Of a DNA stretch of 64,000 nucleotides, positions 41,328 through 51,311 are shown in pieces; position 1 is the first letter of the stretch, and each line of letters begins with the position of its first letter. Position numbers and translations under genes: made by a program. The notes beneath the pieces were generated by a model. The model was not told where the DNA came from and searched no databases. It saw only the letters and a program-made list of their open reading frames with translations. Source of the DNA: an uncultured Bacteroidales bacterium. GTDB taxonomy: Bacteria > Bacteroidota > Bacteroidia > Bacteroidales > Bacteroidaceae. The DNA is taken from positions 248,001 through 312,000 of the forward strand of contig CACWTU010000006.1 in the NCBI GenBank assembly GCA_902763885.1, given 5' to 3'.

Positions 41328-42653
41328 TTATGAAGCCATCCTTCGTTTAGCCATCTCAGAATACCGGTCCTTCCATATCTTAGGCGTCACACCCGTCAAT
41401 TTGCTGAACGTAGTATTAAAAGCGGAAGCACCGGAGAAACCGCAGGCAAGAGCTATATCCTTCTGCGTCACATCACCATGCCCAAGAATATACAGCTCTG
41501 CATAATCAATCCTGAGCATATTAAGATAACTCATGAAAGACATCCCGTAGGTACGCTCCATATAATCATTCAGTTTTACCTTTTCCACCCCAAGCCATTC
41601 CGCCGCATGGGACAGTGAAAGATCGCGTCTCAAATACATCTTCCGCTCCAGCATGAACCGTTCAAACTCAGAATCAAAAGATTCGCCAAGAGGCTCATCG
41701 GAGAAAGCATCGGCAAAATCCACTGGTGGTACATTCACAGACGGGCCGGAGCCGGCAACCCCCTGAGAAGCGGAAGAAGATTCAGAATAGCCGCCACTTT
41801 CAGAAACATCCGCTACGACATCCGCAGACGGAGTAGCCGCATCAGGATAGCCACCGAACCTCATAGATTTAAACAAGCCATTGAGAGACTGTTTTTTCTG
41901 TTGCCCCGCGGTTCCCACAAAAGCAATCAACGACAAGAGGGAAGCAAGGAACAGACATGCAGAAACAGTCATAAGCACACTGTTCACATAACACCGCCTG
42001 CCAAGCAAGAGAGCAGGGATAATGGTAAGCAGAATGATAACAGTAAGGAAATACTGGACTGGAACGATCTCACACCTCTGACCCTTGAAAAAGAATCCGA
42101 AGACATTCTTAGGCCTACATGTCCCATTGATTGCACAGGCCATCATATTGGTAGCAAACAACAGGAAACACATAATCAGGAATGTTCCGAAAACATACGT
42201 ATAACAGGCATAGAAAACAGCCTGACTCTTATTCTCCATAAACGCGAACACAGGCCCCTGAAGAGTATTGGAATACAGGAACAGCCTTACACAATCCTCA
42301 AAGCCTGCTGAAAATACCGACTCCACACCGACAATAAAATGCAGAACCGGAAGAATGCTACAAAATCTATAGAAATAGCCCGATGCCTTCTCCCCACGAC
42401 ACTCTTTAATATACGATATAAAGCAGGGAACTATAGCCAAAGCACAAACCTGTTCAAACAAGGTGAAATGAAGCATAAGCCTTGATTCAGGATCAGCCGA
42501 AAGGAATCCGAAAAGAAAAAACAGAGACAAAACGGCGATAAAGCGCCTTGCCTTCTTAAAAACATCATTCCGCGGAGCAAAAAAAAGATACGCCAGAAAC
42601 CAGAAAAAACCGGCCAGGCACGGAATCAAAATCAGCAGAGACTGTATACGCAT
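41328..42653 (-). CDS. Membrane-anchored AraC-family regulator
   Basis: The 441-residue protein has seven or so hydrophobic segments in residues 1-255, a low-complexity Ser/Val-rich linker (VADVSESGGYSESSSASQGVAGSGPS) and a C-terminal AraC helix-turn-helix pair (LSLSHAAEWLGVEKVKLNDYMERTYG; VTQKDIALACGFSGASAFNTTFSKLTGVTPKIWKDR). The first HTH lacks some usual residues. It precedes the receiver gene by three bases. The signal sensed is unknown. Confidence 0.85.
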   Translation of the reverse strand: MRIQSLLILIPCLAGFFWFLAYLFFAPRNDVFKKARRFIAVLSLFFLFGFLSADPESRLMLHFTLFEQVCALAIVPCFISYIKECRGEKASGYFYRFCSILPVLHFIVGVESVFSAGFEDCVRLFLYSNTLQGPVFAFMENKSQAVFYACYTYVFGTFLIMCFLLFATNMMACAINGTCRPKNVFGFFFKGQRCEIVPVQYFLTVIILLTIIPALLLGRRCYVNSVLMTVSACLFLASLLSLIAFVGTAGQQKKQSLNGLFKSMRFGGYPDAATPSADVVADVSESGGYSESSSASQGVAGSGPSVNVPPVDFADAFSDEPLGESFDSEFERFMLERKMYLRRDLSLSHAAEWLGVEKVKLNDYMERTYGMSFMSYLNMLRIDYAELYILGHGDVTQKDIALACGFSGASAFNTTFSKLTGVTPKIWKDRYSEMAKRRMAS

Positions 42654-43412: not shown

Positions 43413-44762
43413 ATGAAAAAACTTTCAACTATCGCTCTCATTGCTTTTACAGTATTGATGAGTGCATGTGGTCAAAAAGACCCGGGTCTGAAGGACGCCT
43501 ACAAAAACTATTTCAAGATTGGTGTTGCCGTTACCCCGCGTAACGTCACTGATTCACTTCAGGCATCAATTATCCTCAAGGAGTTTAACAGCATCACTGC
43601 TGAGAACTGCATGAAACCCGGTGAGATTCACCCCCAGCCCGGCGTATGGAATTTTGCTCAGGCTGACGCTATCGCAAACTTCTGCCGTGAGCACGGCATC
43701 AAGATGCGTGGTCACTGCCTTGTATGGCACAGCCAGTTCGCCAACTGGATGTTTAACAAGTATGACGAGAACGGCAACCAGGTTGTAGAGCGTGACGAGA
43801 ACGGCGATACCATTTGGGTAGAGCAGCCCGCTCGTGGCGGATTCGGCGGCTTTGGTGGCGGCTTCGGTGGTTTCGGCGGCTTTGGTGGCGGTGCTCCTCA
43901 GGGCGGCCAGCGTCCACAAGGTGCTCCTCAGGGTGGCCAGCGCCCGCAGGGCCAGGGTGGTTTCGGCGGCTTCGGTGGCCAGCGTCCTCAGGGTCAGGCT
44001 CAGGGCCAGGCTCCTCAGATGACCAAGGTTCCAAAGTATGCTAAGGCAACCAAGGAAGAGTTCTACGATTCACTCCGTGCTCACATTCAGGTTGTTGTAA
44101 ACCGTTACAAGGACGTAGTTTATTGCTGGGACGTTGTAAACGAGGCAATGAGCGACGGCAACAACCCCGATGTTCCTTACGAGCAGTCATTCCGTCAGTC
44201 AACCGCTTATCAGCTCTGCGGTGACGAGTTCATCCTCAAGGCATTCCAGTTTGCTCACGAGGCTGATCCTAATGCAGGTCTGTTCTACAACGACTACAGC
44301 GCTTGGACTCCTGCCAAGAGAACTTACATCTATAACATGGTTAAGAAGCTTCAGGCTGAGGGTGCTCCTATTACCGGTATCGGTATGCAGGGTCACTACA
44401 ACATCTATGACAACCCCACCATCGAGGATTTCGAGAAGGCTATCCAGATGTATCTTGAGCTTGTTGATGACATCCAGATCACTGAGTTCGACGTTCGTAT
44501 CAACCACGAGGCTGGTGGTCAGCTTCAGTTCAGTCGCGGCGAGGGTCAGGTTCTTACCGATTCTATCGCTCAGCTTCAGATGGCCAAGTATGAAGAGCTC
44601 TTCAAGGTTATCCGCAAGTACAAGAAGAACTTCTCATGCGTAACATTCTGGAACCTTGGTGACCGTGATTCATGGCTGGGTGCCAACAACTTCCCCTTGC
44701 TGTTTGACGGTGAGTATCAGCGCAAGCCTGTTTACTACACTGTACGTGACTTTAAGAAGTAA
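43413..44762 (+). CDS. GH10 endo-beta-1,4-xylanase, lipoprotein, with an FG-rich insertion
   Basis: The 449-residue enzyme hydrolyses internal beta-1,4 bonds of xylan. A lipobox signal (IALIAFTVLMSACGQ) places it on a membrane. GH10 marks: ENCMKPGEIHPQPG, GHCLVWHSQ, acid/base E244 in DVVNEAM and nucleophile E358 in QITEFDV, VTFWNLGDRDSWL. Between about residues 141 and 203 the barrel is interrupted by a low-complexity stretch of Gly-Phe repeats and Gln-Arg-Pro repeats (GGFGGF, GGQRPQG). The DNA of this stretch is repetitive too. An intrinsic terminator follows at 44783. Catalytic residues are all present, so the insertion need not destroy activity. Confidence 0.93.
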   Translation: MKKLSTIALIAFTVLMSACGQKDPGLKDAYKNYFKIGVAVTPRNVTDSLQASIILKEFNSITAENCMKPGEIHPQPGVWNFAQADAIANFCREHGIKMRGHCLVWHSQFANWMFNKYDENGNQVVERDENGDTIWVEQPARGGFGGFGGGFGGFGGFGGGAPQGGQRPQGAPQGGQRPQGQGGFGGFGGQRPQGQAQGQAPQMTKVPKYAKATKEEFYDSLRAHIQVVVNRYKDVVYCWDVVNEAMSDGNNPDVPYEQSFRQSTAYQLCGDEFILKAFQFAHEADPNAGLFYNDYSAWTPAKRTYIYNMVKKLQAEGAPITGIGMQGHYNIYDNPTIEDFEKAIQMYLELVDDIQITEFDVRINHEAGGQLQFSRGEGQVLTDSIAQLQMAKYEELFKVIRKYKKNFSCVTFWNLGDRDSWLGANNFPLLFDGEYQRKPVYYTVRDFKK

Positions 44763-44939: not shown

Positions 44940-45671
44940 TCAAACCTCTTTCCCGCTTTTTTGACTCCACATCAGAATAATAGGTAACGGAAGCCAATAA
45001 ATAAGGAATGAGATAACACGCATGGAATTCTGAGTCAAGCCAAGCAAAGCGTCAATATGCGTGTATTCAAGAGTCTGAAGTAACTGTGCGGCCACAAGCA
45101 TGGTTACAAGAAAATGGGCAAACTGAGGCAGTATGGTGCAGAACGCATCAGCACAATCACCTGCTGTACGGAAAGTCTCGGTAGAGAGTCCATAAACAAG
45201 TGACGGCAGGCAGACGGCAAGCATCAGCAGAAACATAAAGCCTTCATAGAGCGGACTGCTGGCAAGTGTCCCTGTTATGCCAAGAAGCAGATGGCTACCG
45301 GCAAAAACGCCTAATACTATTACCAGGATATAGATGGCCAGCACCGCCATACTAATATAGAAAGCCGTCGCCTCCTTTGGTGAAAGACTGCGTATTCGTG
45401 ATAATGCACGGAACAGGCCGCTTCCCCTACCCGCACCGATGGCTATGCAGAGCATCAGCGCATTACCTATCGGAGCATTACCCAGACATGATGCAGCAGT
45501 CCTGATAGTCCACCTAATGCCTGGCACACCCAGCACGCTGCGAAGCGCCAGCTCACCATTGCTGTCCACCCTGCTTATTTCCATTATGCTTCCTATCCAG
45601 GAGATAAGAACCACCACAAAAAGCAACAGCAGATAAACAATGGCAGGATGCCACCACCACTTCTTACTCAT
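44940..45671 (-). CDS. AbgT-like multi-pass membrane protein
   Basis: The 243-residue protein has about six hydrophobic segments and resembles short AbgT-type (p-aminobenzoyl-glutamate transporter family) proteins of Bacteroidota: WWWHPAIVYLLLLFVVVLISWIGSIMEI, GVPGIRWTIRTAA, APIGNALMLCIAIGAGRGSGL, SPKEATAFYISMAV and SSPLYEGFMFLLMLAVCLPS. The match is from memory and tentative. It is the last gene of the four-gene sensory operon; its ATG at 45671 overlaps the stop of the response regulator by eight bases. A transport or signal-coupling role is inference. Confidence 0.6.
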   Translation of the reverse strand: MSKKWWWHPAIVYLLLLFVVVLISWIGSIMEISRVDSNGELALRSVLGVPGIRWTIRTAASCLGNAPIGNALMLCIAIGAGRGSGLFRALSRIRSLSPKEATAFYISMAVLAIYILVIVLGVFAGSHLLLGITGTLASSPLYEGFMFLLMLAVCLPSLVYGLSTETFRTAGDCADAFCTILPQFAHFLVTMLVAAQLLQTLEYTHIDALLGLTQNSMRVISFLIYWLPLPIILMWSQKSGKEV

Positions 45672-46383
45672 CGGGTTCAAGATTTGACGGGTCAATTATA
45701 TGAAGTTCTATAGCGCGAACCACCAGACGGGTTACGTTTACGCCACGCTGCTCACCCTCCGGAAAGAGACGGGTCACCAGATCCGCCTGACGTTTCTCAA
45801 GCGACTTGCTGCTGAAAGGCATGGTACGTAACTCACTAATCATATCCTTGGTATATCCTAATGCCAGATGACGAAGGAAACGCTCATCGTACTCATCAAT
45901 CTCATACTCAATACTGGCACTGCGCTGCATCTTCTCATCTGTCACAGCCTTACGGAAACGCTCCACCAGTTTCTCCAAGACAGGCTGATTGAACACATAG
46001 CGTTTGCCTGACATGACATCCATGACCTCACTGCGGGTAAGCAGTTCACCTGTCTTGAGAACAATGCCATGGGCACCGGCATCAAGCACATCGGCCCATA
46101 ACTTCTCATTGAGGAGTTCACCGGTAAAGACAAGCACCTTGACGCTGCTCTTCCGGGTGATTTTGCGGCAGATATCCACACCCACTGTCGTGGAACCGCC
46201 CAGTCCCAGATCAAGCAGAACCAGATCAGGCTGTGCACCGCCATCCATCAGAGTCCAGAACTCACGCTCCGTCTGCGCGGTACCTATCACCTCTATCTCC
46301 GGAATGTCATTCCTGATAATTGACAATGTCCCTTTCAGTTCCAGTGACACATCCTCAACCACAATTGTCTTGATTTTTTCCAT
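45664..46383 (-). CDS. Response regulator with C-terminal helical output domain
   Basis: The 239-residue protein has a receiver domain (VVEDVSLEL, D58 in VLLDLGLGG, LVFTGELL) and a C-terminal part (ERFLRHLALGYTKDMISELRTMPFSSKSLEKRQADLVTRL) whose pattern is that of a LuxR-type helix-turn-helix with a variant recognition helix. It is 12 bases downstream of the double kinase gene and is its probable phosphotransfer partner. Target genes are unknown. Confidence 0.85.
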   Translation of the reverse strand: MEKIKTIVVEDVSLELKGTLSIIRNDIPEIEVIGTAQTEREFWTLMDGGAQPDLVLLDLGLGGSTTVGVDICRKITRKSSVKVLVFTGELLNEKLWADVLDAGAHGIVLKTGELLTRSEVMDVMSGKRYVFNQPVLEKLVERFRKAVTDEKMQRSASIEYEIDEYDERFLRHLALGYTKDMISELRTMPFSSKSLEKRQADLVTRLFPEGEQRGVNVTRLVVRAIELHIIDPSNLEPDE

Positions 46384-46395
46384 ATATCGTATTAT

Positions 46396-49300
46396 TTATT
46401 CTGCTTTAGGAACGGTGAACCATATCACGATACCATCAGGCTCACTCTCGGCATTTATGCGGCAACCGGGATGTCCGAACGCCTCGTCATGCTCACGTAT
46501 TATCTGCCGGCACAGCACGTATGCCATATTCTCCTTATTCATTAGTGGAGTGAACAGCCCGTCAAGCACCTCCGGCTCAGGTGCTACGCACTTACGGTGC
46601 AACATGAACCTCACGAAATTACCTGCAGGAGCTGCTTCAAGTGTCATATCACCGGCATCAGCCATTCCCTTCTCAAGAAGATTCTCCAACAAGCACTCAA
46701 GCATCACCCGGTCAGCTGACACTGTCAGATCAGACAATCCGATGTTTACCTCACCGCTGTACCCCACACGACTCTTTGCCTTCTTTATATAAGCGCACAA
46801 ATCATCAGCAAGCTCACTCACTCTGAAAACGTCACGATGCAACAGTTGTCCCTTTGTCTGTGACAGTGCATACTGGCTCAGTATCCCGAATATCTCACGG
46901 TAATAATCCACCAGTTCCTCCATATCCGATATCTGCGTACCGGTACGCTCTGCAACCGCTGTGGATTCAATCTCACTTACCATCTGCACTATCCTGTTGG
47001 GATACCATACAGTCTCATGCTTGAGCGTGGAGAGGCAGTTGTCAAGTATAAGGTTACTGACATGCAGACGGTTCTCCTCATATCTTATACGCTCCAGTTC
47101 ATCCTCTATCTGCTCTATGTCACGGAACCCGGATTCAAAGCGTATGACACAACTGTACAGCGCAGTAGCCAGGTAATTCACCACCATACCTTTGATAATC
47201 TGCCATGTCTCATCAGGCTCATGTTCCAAACGGAAACCCACAGCGCCTATCATGCGTTCCTCATCATCCAGCGTCAGCATAAGCGGCAGGGCATGACACA
47301 AGCCATCGGTAGAGCTCTGCTCCGCGCCTTGAATCAGACAGGCATTTACACGGTCTGCAAGGCGTTCATCGGCAGGTCCTTCCTTATGCTCTGCCGTTAT
47401 CATGCGGCCTTCATCATTGAGCGCCACCATAATGGAGCGCATATCAACCAAATGGCACAACTCCACATAAATGCCGTCAACAAGACGGTTAACTACATCA
47501 TCTGCGTTGAAATTATCCAGGTCAGTTACGGCAGTCATATCTGATATCCTGTTTACCACGCGGATAGTCTGTTGCAAATCACTACGGAACTTCATCCAAT
47601 GACGCAGATGCATGACATAACGTGCAAGCAGTAGCATCAGGAATATCAACGCGAACACAATAACCGCTATGGTCAGATTACTGTTGGTGCGCTGAAGCTC
47701 ACGGCAATCCTCCTCAATCTTCCACTCACCAAAGTACATCTTGAACAGCCTCAGGTATGCATCATCATTATACCGATAAACATCCCAGTCGCGTAGGGCC
47801 AGAGCAGAAACGGCAATCTCATTACGGAGCCACAATATGGTCTCATAGTCAGTAGGAAAATTGTCAACTCCAAGCCAAAGTATCTCTGATGGCACCTCAG
47901 TATCATATATTTTGAGAAGCACATCATCCTGACCGAGATTATTCAGCCAATCATCATTTAATGCCATGAATGCAGAATCAGCATACATAAGAGCCTCTTC
48001 AAAACGACCTTCAGTATTGCACAGGTATGTCTGGTTGGCATAGTCATAAGCTCTGTAAAGCAGGCTGTCCGCATCCTGCGCACTGGCAGTCACCCCCGCG
48101 CACAGAATAAGCAGGATGCTCAGCGCACGCCTCAAACCCTTAGGCAGACGGAACGAGAAACGGCTGCCCTTACCCGGCGTGCTCTCCACATTGAAACTGC
48201 ACACATGGAACAGGTCATCGGCCTTGCGGTATTTCTCAATGATACCCTTGCAGTTCATCAGGCCGAATCCGCTGCCCTTGCCCTGGCTATGCCCCTGCCC
48301 TATACGCTCCGGATCAAGCACTTTTTCATCACGGATAAGACGGACGTCTTCTTCACTAAGTCCTACGCCAGTGTCAGTGACAGCTATCTCAACATAATCA
48401 TCTCCCTGCTCAGCCTCTACTGTAACCTTACCGCCCGCAGGAGTGAACTTGCGTGCATTATCCGCCAGAGTATTTATCATGAAAAGAGTGAGCACACGGT
48501 CGGCACGTACCACAGCATCTGTACTTATCACATCAAGCTCCACACCCTTCTGCATGAAACTGCGGCTGCTACGGCTCACAATATCAAACAGCTGCTGCAC
48601 AGGGAAACTCTCTATGTTCAGAGCCACTACACCCTGACGTATGCGTATCCACTGTGACAGCAGGTCATTATACTCGTTGATACGCTCAGCAAGCTCACGT
48701 ACATACTGCAGGCTCTGAGCGTATTGCGCACTGTCAGCCGGCATCTCAGCCAGATGACGTATCTCCGAGCGCATACGGTCTATAAACGGCAGGCACTCTG
48801 CCACCACCTGGCAGCAGGTCTTACGGGCCAGATTCTCACGTTTATTGTTATCAGCATGCAGACTATACAGATAATGCTGCTTCTCTGCCTGTTTAAGGCG
48901 GTCAGCCTGTCCTACCAGTTCATCAGCATTCTTAAGAGCAGCCTTTAGGAACGGAGCCACCGTATTCAGCACGGCACGGTTATCACGGCTTACGCGCTTT
49001 CCGCCCCATGAAGCCGATATCTCTGCATTTTCATCAATAGTAACTGATTCAGCCCCAGTCAGCATAGTCAATTCCGGAGCAACAGTACCATTAAGCCATT
49101 CTATTATATCAGCACCGGCAGGAGCGGGCCGTAATATGCTTTCACAAAGACCTACGGTCTTCTGCATCATCACCACATACTTTCTGTTGGCGGCATTGAT
49201 ACGCTTATGGAAAAGCAGGATAAAGATCAGAAGCAATATTACTGCAGCGGCAACGGCATAAAGCATTCCCACCAGACGGCGGTTTGAACGTTCCAACAGT

Positions 49301-50565
49301 ATGGTGCGGGCCTCATAGCGGCGATCCAGACGGATATTCTTCTGAATCTCCAGATATACGGTACGGTTGTAGTCTGATGCAAGTTTGTCATCCAGCCCCG
49401 AGTATGCCAGGCTCATCTGTTCACGCAATGAAGCCATGCACTCCGGCACCACGCTGTGAGGCATTGCATCCATCCACTCCTCCTCCACAATCCTGCCGTC
49501 ACTGCGGTAATTCTCCAGCGGCTCCAGCCTAAGCCCGACGCTGTTCAGACGGAAGTTGTCATTCAACATGCCAAGAGCCGTACCCAGTGCGCCCAAAGCC
49601 TCCTCATACAGACCACGCTCAATATAACAGGAAGCCAGCAATCTTTCACACTCAATGATCTCATACTGACCACCATATGAGGCCGACAGCTGCAATGCCT
49701 TGAGAGCCAATTGCGTAGGCAGGAATTCCGGCTGCACACCCGATGCATTCAGACGTGAAAGCATATCTTCACTTACGCCCGCCATCACCTGATCCGGTCC
49801 GTATTCCAGCAGCAAAGAGCAAATAGCGCTTATGCTCAGTGCCTGCATCCTCACATTATTGTAACGTGTTGCGCTACGCAGGCAATTATCCAGGCTGCGC
49901 AATCTCTGCGAAAGCATATCGGCCTGGCTGTAAGCATTAATGCCTATTCCCAATCCATGCATGTAAGTGTACATCAGGAAGCGGTCATGATCCTCACGCA
50001 GCAGATTATCCGGGATGACATATGACATTTCACGTCCGGCCTGACTAAGCTGTTCCAGCTCAAACCAGTATCGGGCCGATTCCATCCGGAACGAACGTTC
50101 CAGTGAAAGCAGCCGCTCCGTCTGGGCTTCATTCAACGCCTCCTGCTCCTCATGCAGGGCACGCAGGTTAAGCAGTATGCTGTTGCGGTATTCATAGAAT
50201 GAAACATTATCCGATGTACGCTGGCATATACGCATGAGCCCTATCTGCGATGCCACGACCTCCAGCATATTACCCGTAATAGACGGGACGGAACTGTATA
50301 ACTCCCACGCCTGGGTAAAGTCCATGCGCAGGAATGCTACACGCGCCAGGGTATTCACAGCCTTAGCGCGCTCATCAGTATGACGGCCTGCAACCTTCTC
50401 AGCAAATCGCGCATATTGCTCAGCCGAATCCAAATTGTTCCAGAGATAAGATATGGCTTTCTCATTCAGGTCAAACGCCGTAAGCCCTGAATTCTGCAAC
50501 GGAGCCTGCCTGCAAGCAGCAAGACAGAACAACGCACATAACAACCAATATCTCAACCTTATCAT
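46396..50565 (-). CDS. Fused double sensor histidine kinase (DUF5112/DUF5113-like)
   Basis: The 1,389-residue protein reads like two envelope sensor kinases joined. Unit 1: lipobox-like signal (CALFCLAACRQ), a TPR-like periplasmic part, a membrane helix (about 432-454), then a HATPase with N box ADNARKFTP (N703), G1 TDTGVGLS (about 730) and G2 GSGFGLMNCKG, but no clear H-box His. Unit 2 begins with a second signal-like helix ending ASAQ (about 810-829), a short periplasmic part, a membrane helix (about 958-980), a GAF-like region and an H-box-like LKHETVWYPNRI (H1183); its C-terminal ATPase-like part lacks the D-x-G-x-G box. One unit thus keeps the ATP site and the other the His. I recall similar proteins in Bacteroides as DUF5112/DUF5113, not verified. 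It overlaps the upstream gene by four bases (ATGA). Confidence 0.85.
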   Translation of the reverse strand: MIRLRYWLLCALFCLAACRQAPLQNSGLTAFDLNEKAISYLWNNLDSAEQYARFAEKVAGRHTDERAKAVNTLARVAFLRMDFTQAWELYSSVPSITGNMLEVVASQIGLMRICQRTSDNVSFYEYRNSILLNLRALHEEQEALNEAQTERLLSLERSFRMESARYWFELEQLSQAGREMSYVIPDNLLREDHDRFLMYTYMHGLGIGINAYSQADMLSQRLRSLDNCLRSATRYNNVRMQALSISAICSLLLEYGPDQVMAGVSEDMLSRLNASGVQPEFLPTQLALKALQLSASYGGQYEIIECERLLASCYIERGLYEEALGALGTALGMLNDNFRLNSVGLRLEPLENYRSDGRIVEEEWMDAMPHSVVPECMASLREQMSLAYSGLDDKLASDYNRTVYLEIQKNIRLDRRYEARTILLERSNRRLVGMLYAVAAAVILLLIFILLFHKRINAANRKYVVMMQKTVGLCESILRPAPAGADIIEWLNGTVAPELTMLTGAESVTIDENAEISASWGGKRVSRDNRAVLNTVAPFLKAALKNADELVGQADRLKQAEKQHYLYSLHADNNKRENLARKTCCQVVAECLPFIDRMRSEIRHLAEMPADSAQYAQSLQYVRELAERINEYNDLLSQWIRIRQGVVALNIESFPVQQLFDIVSRSSRSFMQKGVELDVISTDAVVRADRVLTLFMINTLADNARKFTPAGGKVTVEAEQGDDYVEIAVTDTGVGLSEEDVRLIRDEKVLDPERIGQGHSQGKGSGFGLMNCKGIIEKYRKADDLFHVCSFNVESTPGKGSRFSFRLPKGLRRALSILLILCAGVTASAQDADSLLYRAYDYANQTYLCNTEGRFEEALMYADSAFMALNDDWLNNLGQDDVLLKIYDTEVPSEILWLGVDNFPTDYETILWLRNEIAVSALALRDWDVYRYNDDAYLRLFKMYFGEWKIEEDCRELQRTNSNLTIAVIVFALIFLMLLLARYVMHLRHWMKFRSDLQQTIRVVNRISDMTAVTDLDNFNADDVVNRLVDGIYVELCHLVDMRSIMVALNDEGRMITAEHKEGPADERLADRVNACLIQGAEQSSTDGLCHALPLMLTLDDEERMIGAVGFRLEHEPDETWQIIKGMVVNYLATALYSCVIRFESGFRDIEQIEDELERIRYEENRLHVSNLILDNCLSTLKHETVWYPNRIVQMVSEIESTAVAERTGTQISDMEELVDYYREIFGILSQYALSQTKGQLLHRDVFRVSELADDLCAYIKKAKSRVGYSGEVNIGLSDLTVSADRVMLECLLENLLEKGMADAGDMTLEAAPAGNFVRFMLHRKCVAPEPEVLDGLFTPLMNKENMAYVLCRQIIREHDEAFGHPGCRINAESEPDGIVIWFTVPKAE

Positions 50566-51311
50566 CTTGTCTCTATAGTTTCAGGCGTAAGCTGTAACAT
50601 GAAAGCCGCCTCAAGCCCGTATTCGGTATATGCAGAAATCATAGCCTCCCTGGTTGATTTCACATTGTCCGCAAATACCCTGCAGCCAAGCCCGTCATCA
50701 TCAACATCGAGCCTCAATCCTGAATCCGATGAGTGCCAGCCCACAAACATCCCCTTCTCCAGTCCACGGATTCTAAGATGCACAGCCTCACCGTTATCCG
50801 GATACTTAGAGTCAGAACTCAGCACCATAAACAAAGGTCCGTCAGATCTGTCAAGCACCTTTTCCGTAAGTTCCAGTCCGTCAATATCAATTATAGTCTC
50901 CTGTTCATCAAGAACTGAACACTCCTCAGAGTTTACTGTTACGCCTGTGATATAGTTTCTGTATGCCGGATTGAAAATCCTGCTCATGACAAGCCCTTCA
51001 CAACCTGTCACCTCGCAGTCAGCCAGAATCATACCGTCACCGCTCTCCGCCACATACAGCACACCCGTCTTGCTCTCAAACTTGCAGTTACGGAACACCG
51101 CACCGTATGAATGATTCAGCACTATGCTGTCCGTCACGAAAGTGCAGCCGTCAAAAAGCACCGGCCATGATACGTCAACCGTCCCGTTGAATGTCCTGTT
51201 ACTGAAACTGTTCAGTATCGGCAACACCTGAGCCTGCACGACACTTGTTGCGGAAATACACATTGCCACAAACAACATGCACCATCTCTTTAACAGCTTT
51301 GATATTGCCAT
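50562..51311 (-). CDS. Secreted protein with right-handed beta-helix-like repeats
   Basis: The 249-residue product has a Sec signal (about 1-28, ending VVQA). Residues 35-110 show stacked short turns typical of a parallel beta-helix: GTVDVSWPVLFDGCTFVTDSIVLNHSYGAVFRNCKF, GVLYVAES, GMILADCEVTGCEG. No catalytic residues are recognised. It is the first gene of the sensory operon and its stop overlaps the kinase start (50562-50565). A periplasmic ligand-binding or kinase-modulating role is suggested only by position. Confidence 0.7.
   Translation of the reverse strand: MAISKLLKRWCMLFVAMCISATSVVQAQVLPILNSFSNRTFNGTVDVSWPVLFDGCTFVTDSIVLNHSYGAVFRNCKFESKTGVLYVAESGDGMILADCEVTGCEGLVMSRIFNPAYRNYITGVTVNSEECSVLDEQETIIDIDGLELTEKVLDRSDGPLFMVLSSDSKYPDNGEAVHLRIRGLEKGMFVGWHSSDSGLRLDVDDDGLGCRVFADNVKSTREAMISAYTEYGLEAAFMLQLTPETIETR

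Follow-up and report, generated by a model that had tools for sequence, protein, structure and literature searches.

The locus and its genes

We describe a four-gene locus in a 64,000-nucleotide stretch, called the window below, of contig CACWTU010000006.1 from an uncultured bacterium of the family Bacteroidaceae. At its centre lies gene 2, which encodes a 1,389-residue protein made of two sensor kinase units: judging from the alignments given below, the first holds an ATP-binding site and the second the predicted phospho-acceptor histidine. A sequence-only reading of this DNA had proposed four genes on the same strand, with overlaps or a 12-base gap between them, and all four open reading frames are indeed present, on the minus strand, in region 44940..51311. 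All coordinates of the locus given in the text refer to that strand.

Gene 1 (50562..51311) encodes a secreted protein of 249 amino acids with a weak beta-helix similarity; its N-terminal signal peptide (51231..51311), a hydrophobic segment read by eye, ends in VQA/Q. Gene 2 (46396..50565), the tandem split histidine kinase, overlaps gene 1 by 4 bases. After a gap of 12 bases comes gene 3 (45664..46383), a response regulator of 239 amino acids with a receiver at residues 7-111, the aspartate D58 and a C-terminal DUF5932 domain; the corresponding Pfam matches are Response_reg and DUF5932. Gene 4 (44940..45695), matched by ABG_transport, encodes a half-length AbgT-like membrane protein from which two internal blocks are missing. 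It has 251 amino acids when read from a TTG codon, and its likely start is the ATG at 45671 (codon 9), with which it overlaps gene 3 by 8 bases.

Searched against Pfam, the protein of gene 2 contains DUF5112, two stretches of DUF5113 and one HATPase_c domain. DUF5112 and DUF5113 score above their cut-offs, with 172.7 and 186.1 bits, and Response_reg has no match anywhere in the 1,389 residues. The chain opens with a lipoprotein-type signal (50512..50565; LAAC, with C18, read by eye), followed by DUF5112 (residues 32-293, 49687..50472, E 1.4e-50), the presumed periplasmic sensor of unit 1, and by the first DUF5113 (residues about 297-455, 49201..49677, E 7.9e-24), a sensor region that runs into the first predicted transmembrane helix, TM1 (residues 434-452, 49210..49266). 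The dimerization and histidine phosphotransfer (DHp)-like helices of unit 1 (residues about 555-650, 48616..48903) are without a conserved acceptor histidine at the H-box position, and its catalytic ATP-binding domain (residues 696-809, 48139..48480, HATPase_c E 1.2e-20) encloses N703, the string TDTGVGLS with DTGVG, and the string GSGFGLM with GFG.

A segment resembling a signal peptide follows (residues 806-829, 48079..48150), with a predicted cleavage at ASA/Q830: this is the second signal-like helix that had been noticed inside the chain, and it does end at Q830. Behind it lie the second DUF5113 (residues 833-988, 47602..48069), the presumed periplasmic sensor of unit 2, which runs into the predicted helix TM3 (residues 963-981, 47623..47679), then the DHp region of unit 2 (46828..47118), with the H box LSTLKHETVWYP, and a pseudo-catalytic domain (residues 1240-1389, 46399..46848) in which the N and GFG boxes are missing. 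The codon of H1183, the predicted phospho-acceptor in KHETVWYP, is at 47017..47019. By its domain assignments, the plan of the protein is a succession of DUF5113 sensor region, transmembrane helix, GAF-like region, DHp-like region and catalytic-like domain, repeated twice. The signals and helices would place both DUF5113 sensors in the periplasm.

Homologues in the family

DUF5113 is found in 313 of the 399 genomes of the window's family, in 25 of its 30 genera; in most of the matches listed, the domain occurs twice in a single frame, about 1,150-1,544 amino acids long, with shorter frames in a few genera. Our set of 54 kinases represents every one of the 25 positive genera; 16 of its members belong to the window's genus or to close records. 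Left out of this set were incomplete or broken frames (L020, L021, L022, L023, L025, L065, L066, L067, L070 and L071), the duplicates L057 and L058, and the outgroup. Alignment A1 contains 53 of the 54 kinases (L024 is omitted), and alignment A2 contains 39.

A local gene fusion, with homologues that would usually be two separate genes, was considered and rejected: a single frame spans both units in all 54 kinases, drawn from all 25 positive genera, so the fused frame is the usual state in the family. Two exceptions were seen: L022/L066, where the frame is broken, and genome G662, which has two DUF5113 matches on two contigs. In L022/L066 (1300-1421), the kinase is carried by overlapping frames of 472 and 872 amino acids, in one metagenome assembly, the result of a frameshift or of an assembly error. 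Three members, L106, L112 and L088, are shortened (978-1,134 amino acids); in L112, the pseudo-catalytic domain of unit 2 is strongly eroded and the H box is intact.

Within a sample of 295 genomes of the order, DUF5113 is matched at E <= 0.001 in 10 genomes. Five of these matches, the ones that were followed up, are over the cut-off: four come from the window's family; the fifth, L114 in genome G120, lies outside it, reads as a generic tetratricopeptide repeat protein without kinase boxes, and was discarded. The profile of the unit 2 H box, built on A2, matched four of the 295 genomes, all in the window's family. So far, the system formed by genes 2-4 has been seen only in Bacteroidaceae. Three genomes of the window's own genus, G341 (97% complete), G379 (96%) and G618, have no DUF5113 match; the first two being so nearly complete, the system may sometimes be lost.

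Complementary halves

Histidine kinases are normally homodimers with both activities on each chain. In this family, each unit has kept the boxes that the other is missing. In unit 1, the residues N703, D731, G733, G735, G766, F767 and G768, which belong to the N, G1 and G2 boxes, do not vary in any of the 54 homologues, and HATPase_c is matched in every one of them; at the H-box position of this unit, 51 of the 54 have no histidine, and hydrophobic or small residues predominate there in the alignment. Among the columns of unit 2 that never vary are N1171, D1175, N1176, L1178, S1179, K1182, H1183, E1184, Y1188 and P1189, and all 54 keep the motif LSxxKHExxxYP around H1183: of the 14 columns invariant in the unit, 10 fall in the H-box stretch. 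Asparagine is found in none of the 54 at position 1300, the equivalent of N703, and the GFG motif in none either.

The sequence-only reading had given unit 1 the N, G1 and G2 boxes without an obvious H box, a description that now extends to nearly the whole family. Its account of unit 2, an H-box-like motif without ATP-binding boxes, needs an amendment: the H box is universal and the N and GFG boxes are unrecognisable, but a degenerate ATPase-like domain is present. A HATPase_c match at E <= 0.01 is obtained for 28 of the 54 unit 2s, the window's own not among them, and, in its C-terminal part, the unit 2 profile aligns with kinases of known structure (3a0t being the best, E 2e-9).

Neither unit is thus a canonical HisKA/HATPase_c kinase, the invariant H box being in unit 2 and the invariant ATP boxes in unit 1. 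What is found is the arrangement of a split kinase, in which the partner that has the ATP site lacks the acceptor histidine, and the partner that has the histidine lacks the ATP site; the two partners share one reading frame in the homologues analysed, yet a site resembling those of signal peptidases stands between them. As far as alignments can tell, the complementary split is a family-wide pattern, and the protein is a split kinase in one frame. The earlier proposal that ATP site and acceptor are divided between two units obliged to cooperate is strongly supported by this conservation. The outcome that would have contradicted it, an acceptor histidine in unit 1 and a unit 2 reduced to a sensor, is not what the homologues present: unit 1 has no invariant H-box histidine, and unit 2 is more than a sensor. 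Chance is countered by the presence of DUF5113 in both units, by their alignment as profiles and by boxes that are invariant in all 54 homologues.

Several observations weigh against this picture. Unit 1 has a histidine at column 589 in three of the 54 homologues (L081, L082 and L096, all of one genus), with a serine and not an acid as neighbour, at column 592 in two (L077 and L097), and at the position of H570 in 41: in some genera, unit 1 may have another acceptor. DxGxG-like strings are found in two unit 2s (L107 and L109), and GxG-plus-hydrophobic strings in nine, so that a few unit 2s may bind nucleotide. Finally, the H box of unit 2 departs from HisKA, with no N or T at H+4 and a proline at H+6, which makes a phosphatase function uncertain. 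We also observed that one register of the alignment brings the column-589 histidine of L081, L082 and L096, in VHSIMPFIDR, to the place of the H box.

These histidines lead to a different explanation, in which unit 2 would be a regulatory pseudokinase similar to DivL, and unit 1 would use a non-canonical acceptor, such as H570, in place of H1183. There is a model for it, DivL being described as a regulatory pseudo-histidine kinase in the accessible text of PMC9430884, and H570 is a histidine in most unit 1s. However, H570 is variable, while none of the 54 homologues departs from H1183 or from the acidic residue next to it, E1184, and the H-box stretch alone accounts for most of the invariant columns of unit 2. 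We consider this explanation improbable.

Conservation extends to the regulator. A homologue of gene 3 stands beside the kinase in 53 of the 54 loci, the exception being L088. The defining residues of response regulators are an acid pocket, an aspartate, a threonine and a lysine: the corresponding E10, D11, D58, T87 and K110 are invariant in 48 of 48 family members aligned (48 of the 53, L024, L084, L087, L093 and L100 being left out, with one outgroup added). Since the pocket is kept, a phosphoryl signal is presumably still relayed.

One could also imagine an inactive, decaying kinase fusion, conserved by descent alone. It would account for the absence of the system from some genomes of the same genus (G341 and G379), for the 11 forms out of 54 that are shorter than 1,250 amino acids (978-1,242), and for the missing regulator of L088. 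It hardly accounts for a presence in 313 of 399 genomes, nor for catalytic boxes, an H box and a regulator pocket that are invariant over 25 genera while other columns vary, and we give it almost no credence.

Homology and origin of the two units

The cytoplasmic halves of the two units, compared profile to profile, align with a probability score of 99.2 and an E-value of 9.9e-20; the reversed control scores 1.2. Taken separately, the catalytic-like domains score 99.0 (reversed, 0.1), the sensor regions 98.4, and 85.2 is reached between the GAF-like regions. Between the two DHp regions by themselves, the alignment is weak (4.5), which counts against our reading. On the strength of the profiles, the two units of gene 2 are homologous.

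A tree was computed for 23 of the 25 genera, with 24 rows for each unit and with additional kinases, of which two of the eight intended (L126 and L128) were dropped; it is midpoint-rooted only, and came with warnings that its branches are long and its bootstrap had not settled. A branch with support 100/100 has all unit 1s on the same side, and a second branch, equally supported, has all unit 2s together on one of its sides. The two-unit form is thus older than these 23 genera. However, midpoint rooting places other kinases between the two groups, and there are the warnings on long branches: the protein may have arisen by a simple duplication or by the fusion of two related kinases.

The nearest thing to a single-unit relative is a kinase of 710 amino acids, found in two genomes of another Bacteroidales family (L113 and L119; the proteins are 94% identical and count as one case). 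It has a lipoprotein-type start, one transmembrane helix, the H box CLSIFRHDMSP and an intact HATPase_c domain, and it adjoins a regulator with a DUF5932 match of 26.2 bits (cut-off 23.7), a domain found in just two of the 41 genomes of that family. After its G2 box comes an extra stretch (IIKKHDDETRRGC; compare IIREHDE..GC in unit 2), located where the alignment of unit 1 with SrrB has a gap of 8 residues. The profile of its catalytic domain scores 99.4 with unit 1 and 99.0 with unit 2.

The other domains speak against a close tie: the DHp profiles of units 1 and 2 score 1.2 and 0.7 with the core of this kinase, and its sensor aligns weakly with that of unit 1 (47) and not with that of unit 2 (4.4). 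On this thin evidence, the single-unit kinase looks like the ancestral layout. A search of 198 genomes of the class with this outgroup kinase returned general kinases and no clearer ancestor.

The internal signal

Signal peptidase substrates have a charged n-region, a short h-region, and an AxA motif or a lipobox. The segment between the two units, residues 806-830 (RLPKGLRRALSILLILCAGVTASAQ), resembles such a signal peptide, as do most equivalent segments of the homologues. In the window's genus, these segments mostly end in AxA/Q, as the window's own does with ASA/Q; elsewhere they end in lipoboxes such as LAGC, LSSC and LTGC. Their mean hydrophobicity is 1.66, against 1.74 for the N-terminal signals, 2.97 for TM1 and 2.82 for TM3, and their mean uncharged run is 13.4 residues long, against 20.8 for TM1 and 20.7 for TM3.

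With a simple rule, a motif for signal peptidase I or II is recognised in 42 of the 54 internal segments (25 and 17, respectively), in 42 of the 54 N-terminal signals, in four TM1s and in five TM3s. The cleavage rules were not fitted, and they may settle on an adjacent site: for L104 and L111 they gave a lipobox where an AxA-like site was possibly meant. Counting one kinase per genus, the internal motif is present in 19 of 25 genera; shuffled segments reach a mean of 8.9 and a maximum of 17, and none of 2,000 shuffles is as high.

It is thus natural to ask whether the chain is cut. The split kinase might well stay whole, the internal segment being another transmembrane helix, and the halves pairing in the chain or across a homodimer of full chains. 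The topology needs a helix there anyway, with its N-terminus in and its C-terminus out, and the signal peptide of an ancestral gene could persist as a relic that serves as anchor. Moreover, 12 of the 54 internal segments fail the simple rule and have no clear site, although 12 of the 54 N-terminal signals fail it too. On the other side, the internal run is short for a membrane helix and its hydrophobicity low, and the cleavage motif is as frequent as at the N-terminal signals and rare at TM1 and TM3. Furthermore, genera differ in the class of the site, AxA or lipobox, while a site is retained in most cases, as if cleavage were selected for. We regard an uncut chain as a serious but lesser possibility.

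As the most economical reading of the internal signal, the data suggest a polyprotein cut in the periplasm. We lean, with modest confidence, towards a cleavage after A829 in the window, and at a lipobox cysteine in other genera, which would turn the mature kinase into an obligate 1:1 heterodimer with two periplasmic inputs. The sequence-only reading had let the two units work on each other in one chain or in a dimer; the first of these terms is possibly wrong, since the chain is probably cleaved at the internal signal.

Two subunits could also arise without any cleavage, if the second half were made in addition from an internal translation start. An in-frame ATG does exist between columns 796 and 817 in 26 of the 54 genes, a GTG at column 811 in 17 and a TTG at column 807 in 14, yet the commonest ATG column is shared by only 12 of the 54. 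An internal start as a conserved feature is ruled out by the absence of a conserved start-codon column, and we judge the explanation as a whole very unlikely.

The neighbouring genes

Kinase, regulator and AbgT-like gene commonly follow each other in this order: 46 of the 54 loci have an AbgT homologue, and two of the eight loci without it are cut by the locus end. We compared 35 of these 46 genes; the window's own gene and ten others were left out, and a near copy of the window's gene, in L015, was included. Ten of the 35 are full length (482-514 amino acids), and 25 have 198-262 amino acids and are without two internal blocks. The sequence-only reading was right to call gene 4 AbgT-like, as the ABG_transport match confirms, and had overlooked that it is about half the usual length.

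Referred to the full protein of L076 (514 amino acids), which aligns nearly end to end with the structures 4r1i and 4r0c, the missing blocks are at about 140-260 and 380-440, and hold the motifs GYSAN and SATS. AbgT proteins have two helical hairpins and are among the proposed elevator-type transporters, in which hairpins are often part of the transport domain, according to the accessible text of PMC7329351 and PMC6359215. From their motifs, the missing blocks would be these hairpins. With both blocks absent, the half-length proteins do not have a full AbgT transport core, and the retention of the gene in a kinase operon after the loss of that core argues for a role in signalling. We think it probable that the AbgT-like protein serves as a membrane input or as a scaffold subunit and that its transport core was lost in many genera, and the contrast between the operons points to a possible conversion of a transporter into a signalling protein.

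Gene 1 is of a different nature. Its match to the Pfam family Beta_helix, E 0.0073 with 16.4 bits, is below the cut-off of 25.9, so that the beta-helix label it had received holds only weakly. We found its homologues only in loci that belong to the window's genus or to close records, with none in the locus DNA examined of L063 and L069, nor in loci of other genera. The product of gene 1 should thus be an accessory protein and not the core sensor. The idea that it acts as the periplasmic sensor of the system also conflicts with the plan of the kinase, each unit of which has its own DUF5113 before a membrane helix.

Two other genes of the window were noted. On the plus strand, 43413-44762 encodes a GH10-family glycoside hydrolase (Pfam E 3.3e-92), with a low-complexity insert rich in Gly, Gln and Phe (GGFGGFGGGFGGFGG...GQRPQG) before its main domain match. 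On the minus strand, 41328-42653 encodes a protein of 441 amino acids, which we take to have a multi-helix N-terminal membrane part and an AraC-type C-terminus.

Proposed mechanism

Genes 2-4 probably form a two-component system with a split histidine kinase made of two homologous units: this is, in our view, the best explanation of the locus. The two DUF5113 regions would face the periplasm, and the DHp regions of units 1 and 2 would pair in a pseudo-symmetric four-helix bundle. The ATP domain of unit 1 would phosphorylate H1183 of unit 2, from which the phosphoryl group would pass to D58 of the regulator, whose DUF5932 end would control transcription. A signal peptidase cut in the internal signal would make the mature kinase a 1:1 heterodimer, and the AbgT-like protein would be a membrane input or scaffold subunit.

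The complete scenario goes further, and we propose it only tentatively. Signal peptidase I or II would cut the internal signal and release a catalytic and an acceptor subunit, each with its own sensor; both would be needed, which might allow the coincidence of two signals to be detected, and the core-less AbgT protein would be the third subunit. A pair of units with one ATP site and one acceptor histidine would be a clean system for questions of cis versus trans phosphorylation and of dimer asymmetry. Were the chain cut at the internal signal, it would be a signalling receptor matured in polyprotein fashion. The system is widespread in its family and its regulator is strongly conserved, yet three of its Pfam families are still named as domains of unknown function.

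Comparison with known systems

Our literature search, whose coverage excluded most subscription papers, found no paper naming DUF5112, DUF5113 or DUF5932; nor did it find, within the same coverage, a fused complementary kinase pair or an internally cleaved kinase. Signal peptidase is known to cut an internal signal peptide in the FbcH cytochrome b/c1 polyprotein of Bradyrhizobium, and so to make two subunits from one gene; that product is a respiratory complex and not a kinase.

Closer to the locus, the single-unit kinase of L113 and L119 shares with gene 2 a lipoprotein-type start, HATPase_c and a DUF5932 regulator next door, and differs from it in that its one unit of 710 amino acids keeps both H box and ATP boxes. 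The transporters MtrF and YdaH (4r1i and 4r0c) are similar to the full-length AbgT protein of L076, while proteins of the window's type are without the GYSAN and SATS blocks.

Among double kinases, TodS of Pseudomonas putida is the nearest that we found: like the protein of gene 2, it combines in a single chain two kinase transmitter modules that each have a sensor of their own. In the accessible text of PMC4321377, TodS has no transmembrane regions, a central receiver and a His-Asp-His-Asp relay. The kinase of gene 2 differs on each count, with membrane segments, no receiver, and a complementary loss of boxes.

A functional parallel is CheA3/CheA4 of Rhodobacter sphaeroides, where the ATP-binding and acceptor activities are on different partners, neither of which should work alone, as described in the accessible text of PMC3591291. 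A survey in the same source counts 1,556 proteins without HATPase among 42,417 HisKA proteins, and its main text contains no word starting with Bacteroid, fused or tandem. CheA3 and CheA4 are separate genes of chemotaxis kinases, while here a single frame, with a signal-peptide-like segment inside it, encodes two homologous membrane sensor kinases. Split kinases are thus already described, and what is newly noted here is that the stretch joining the two halves looks like a genuine signal peptide.

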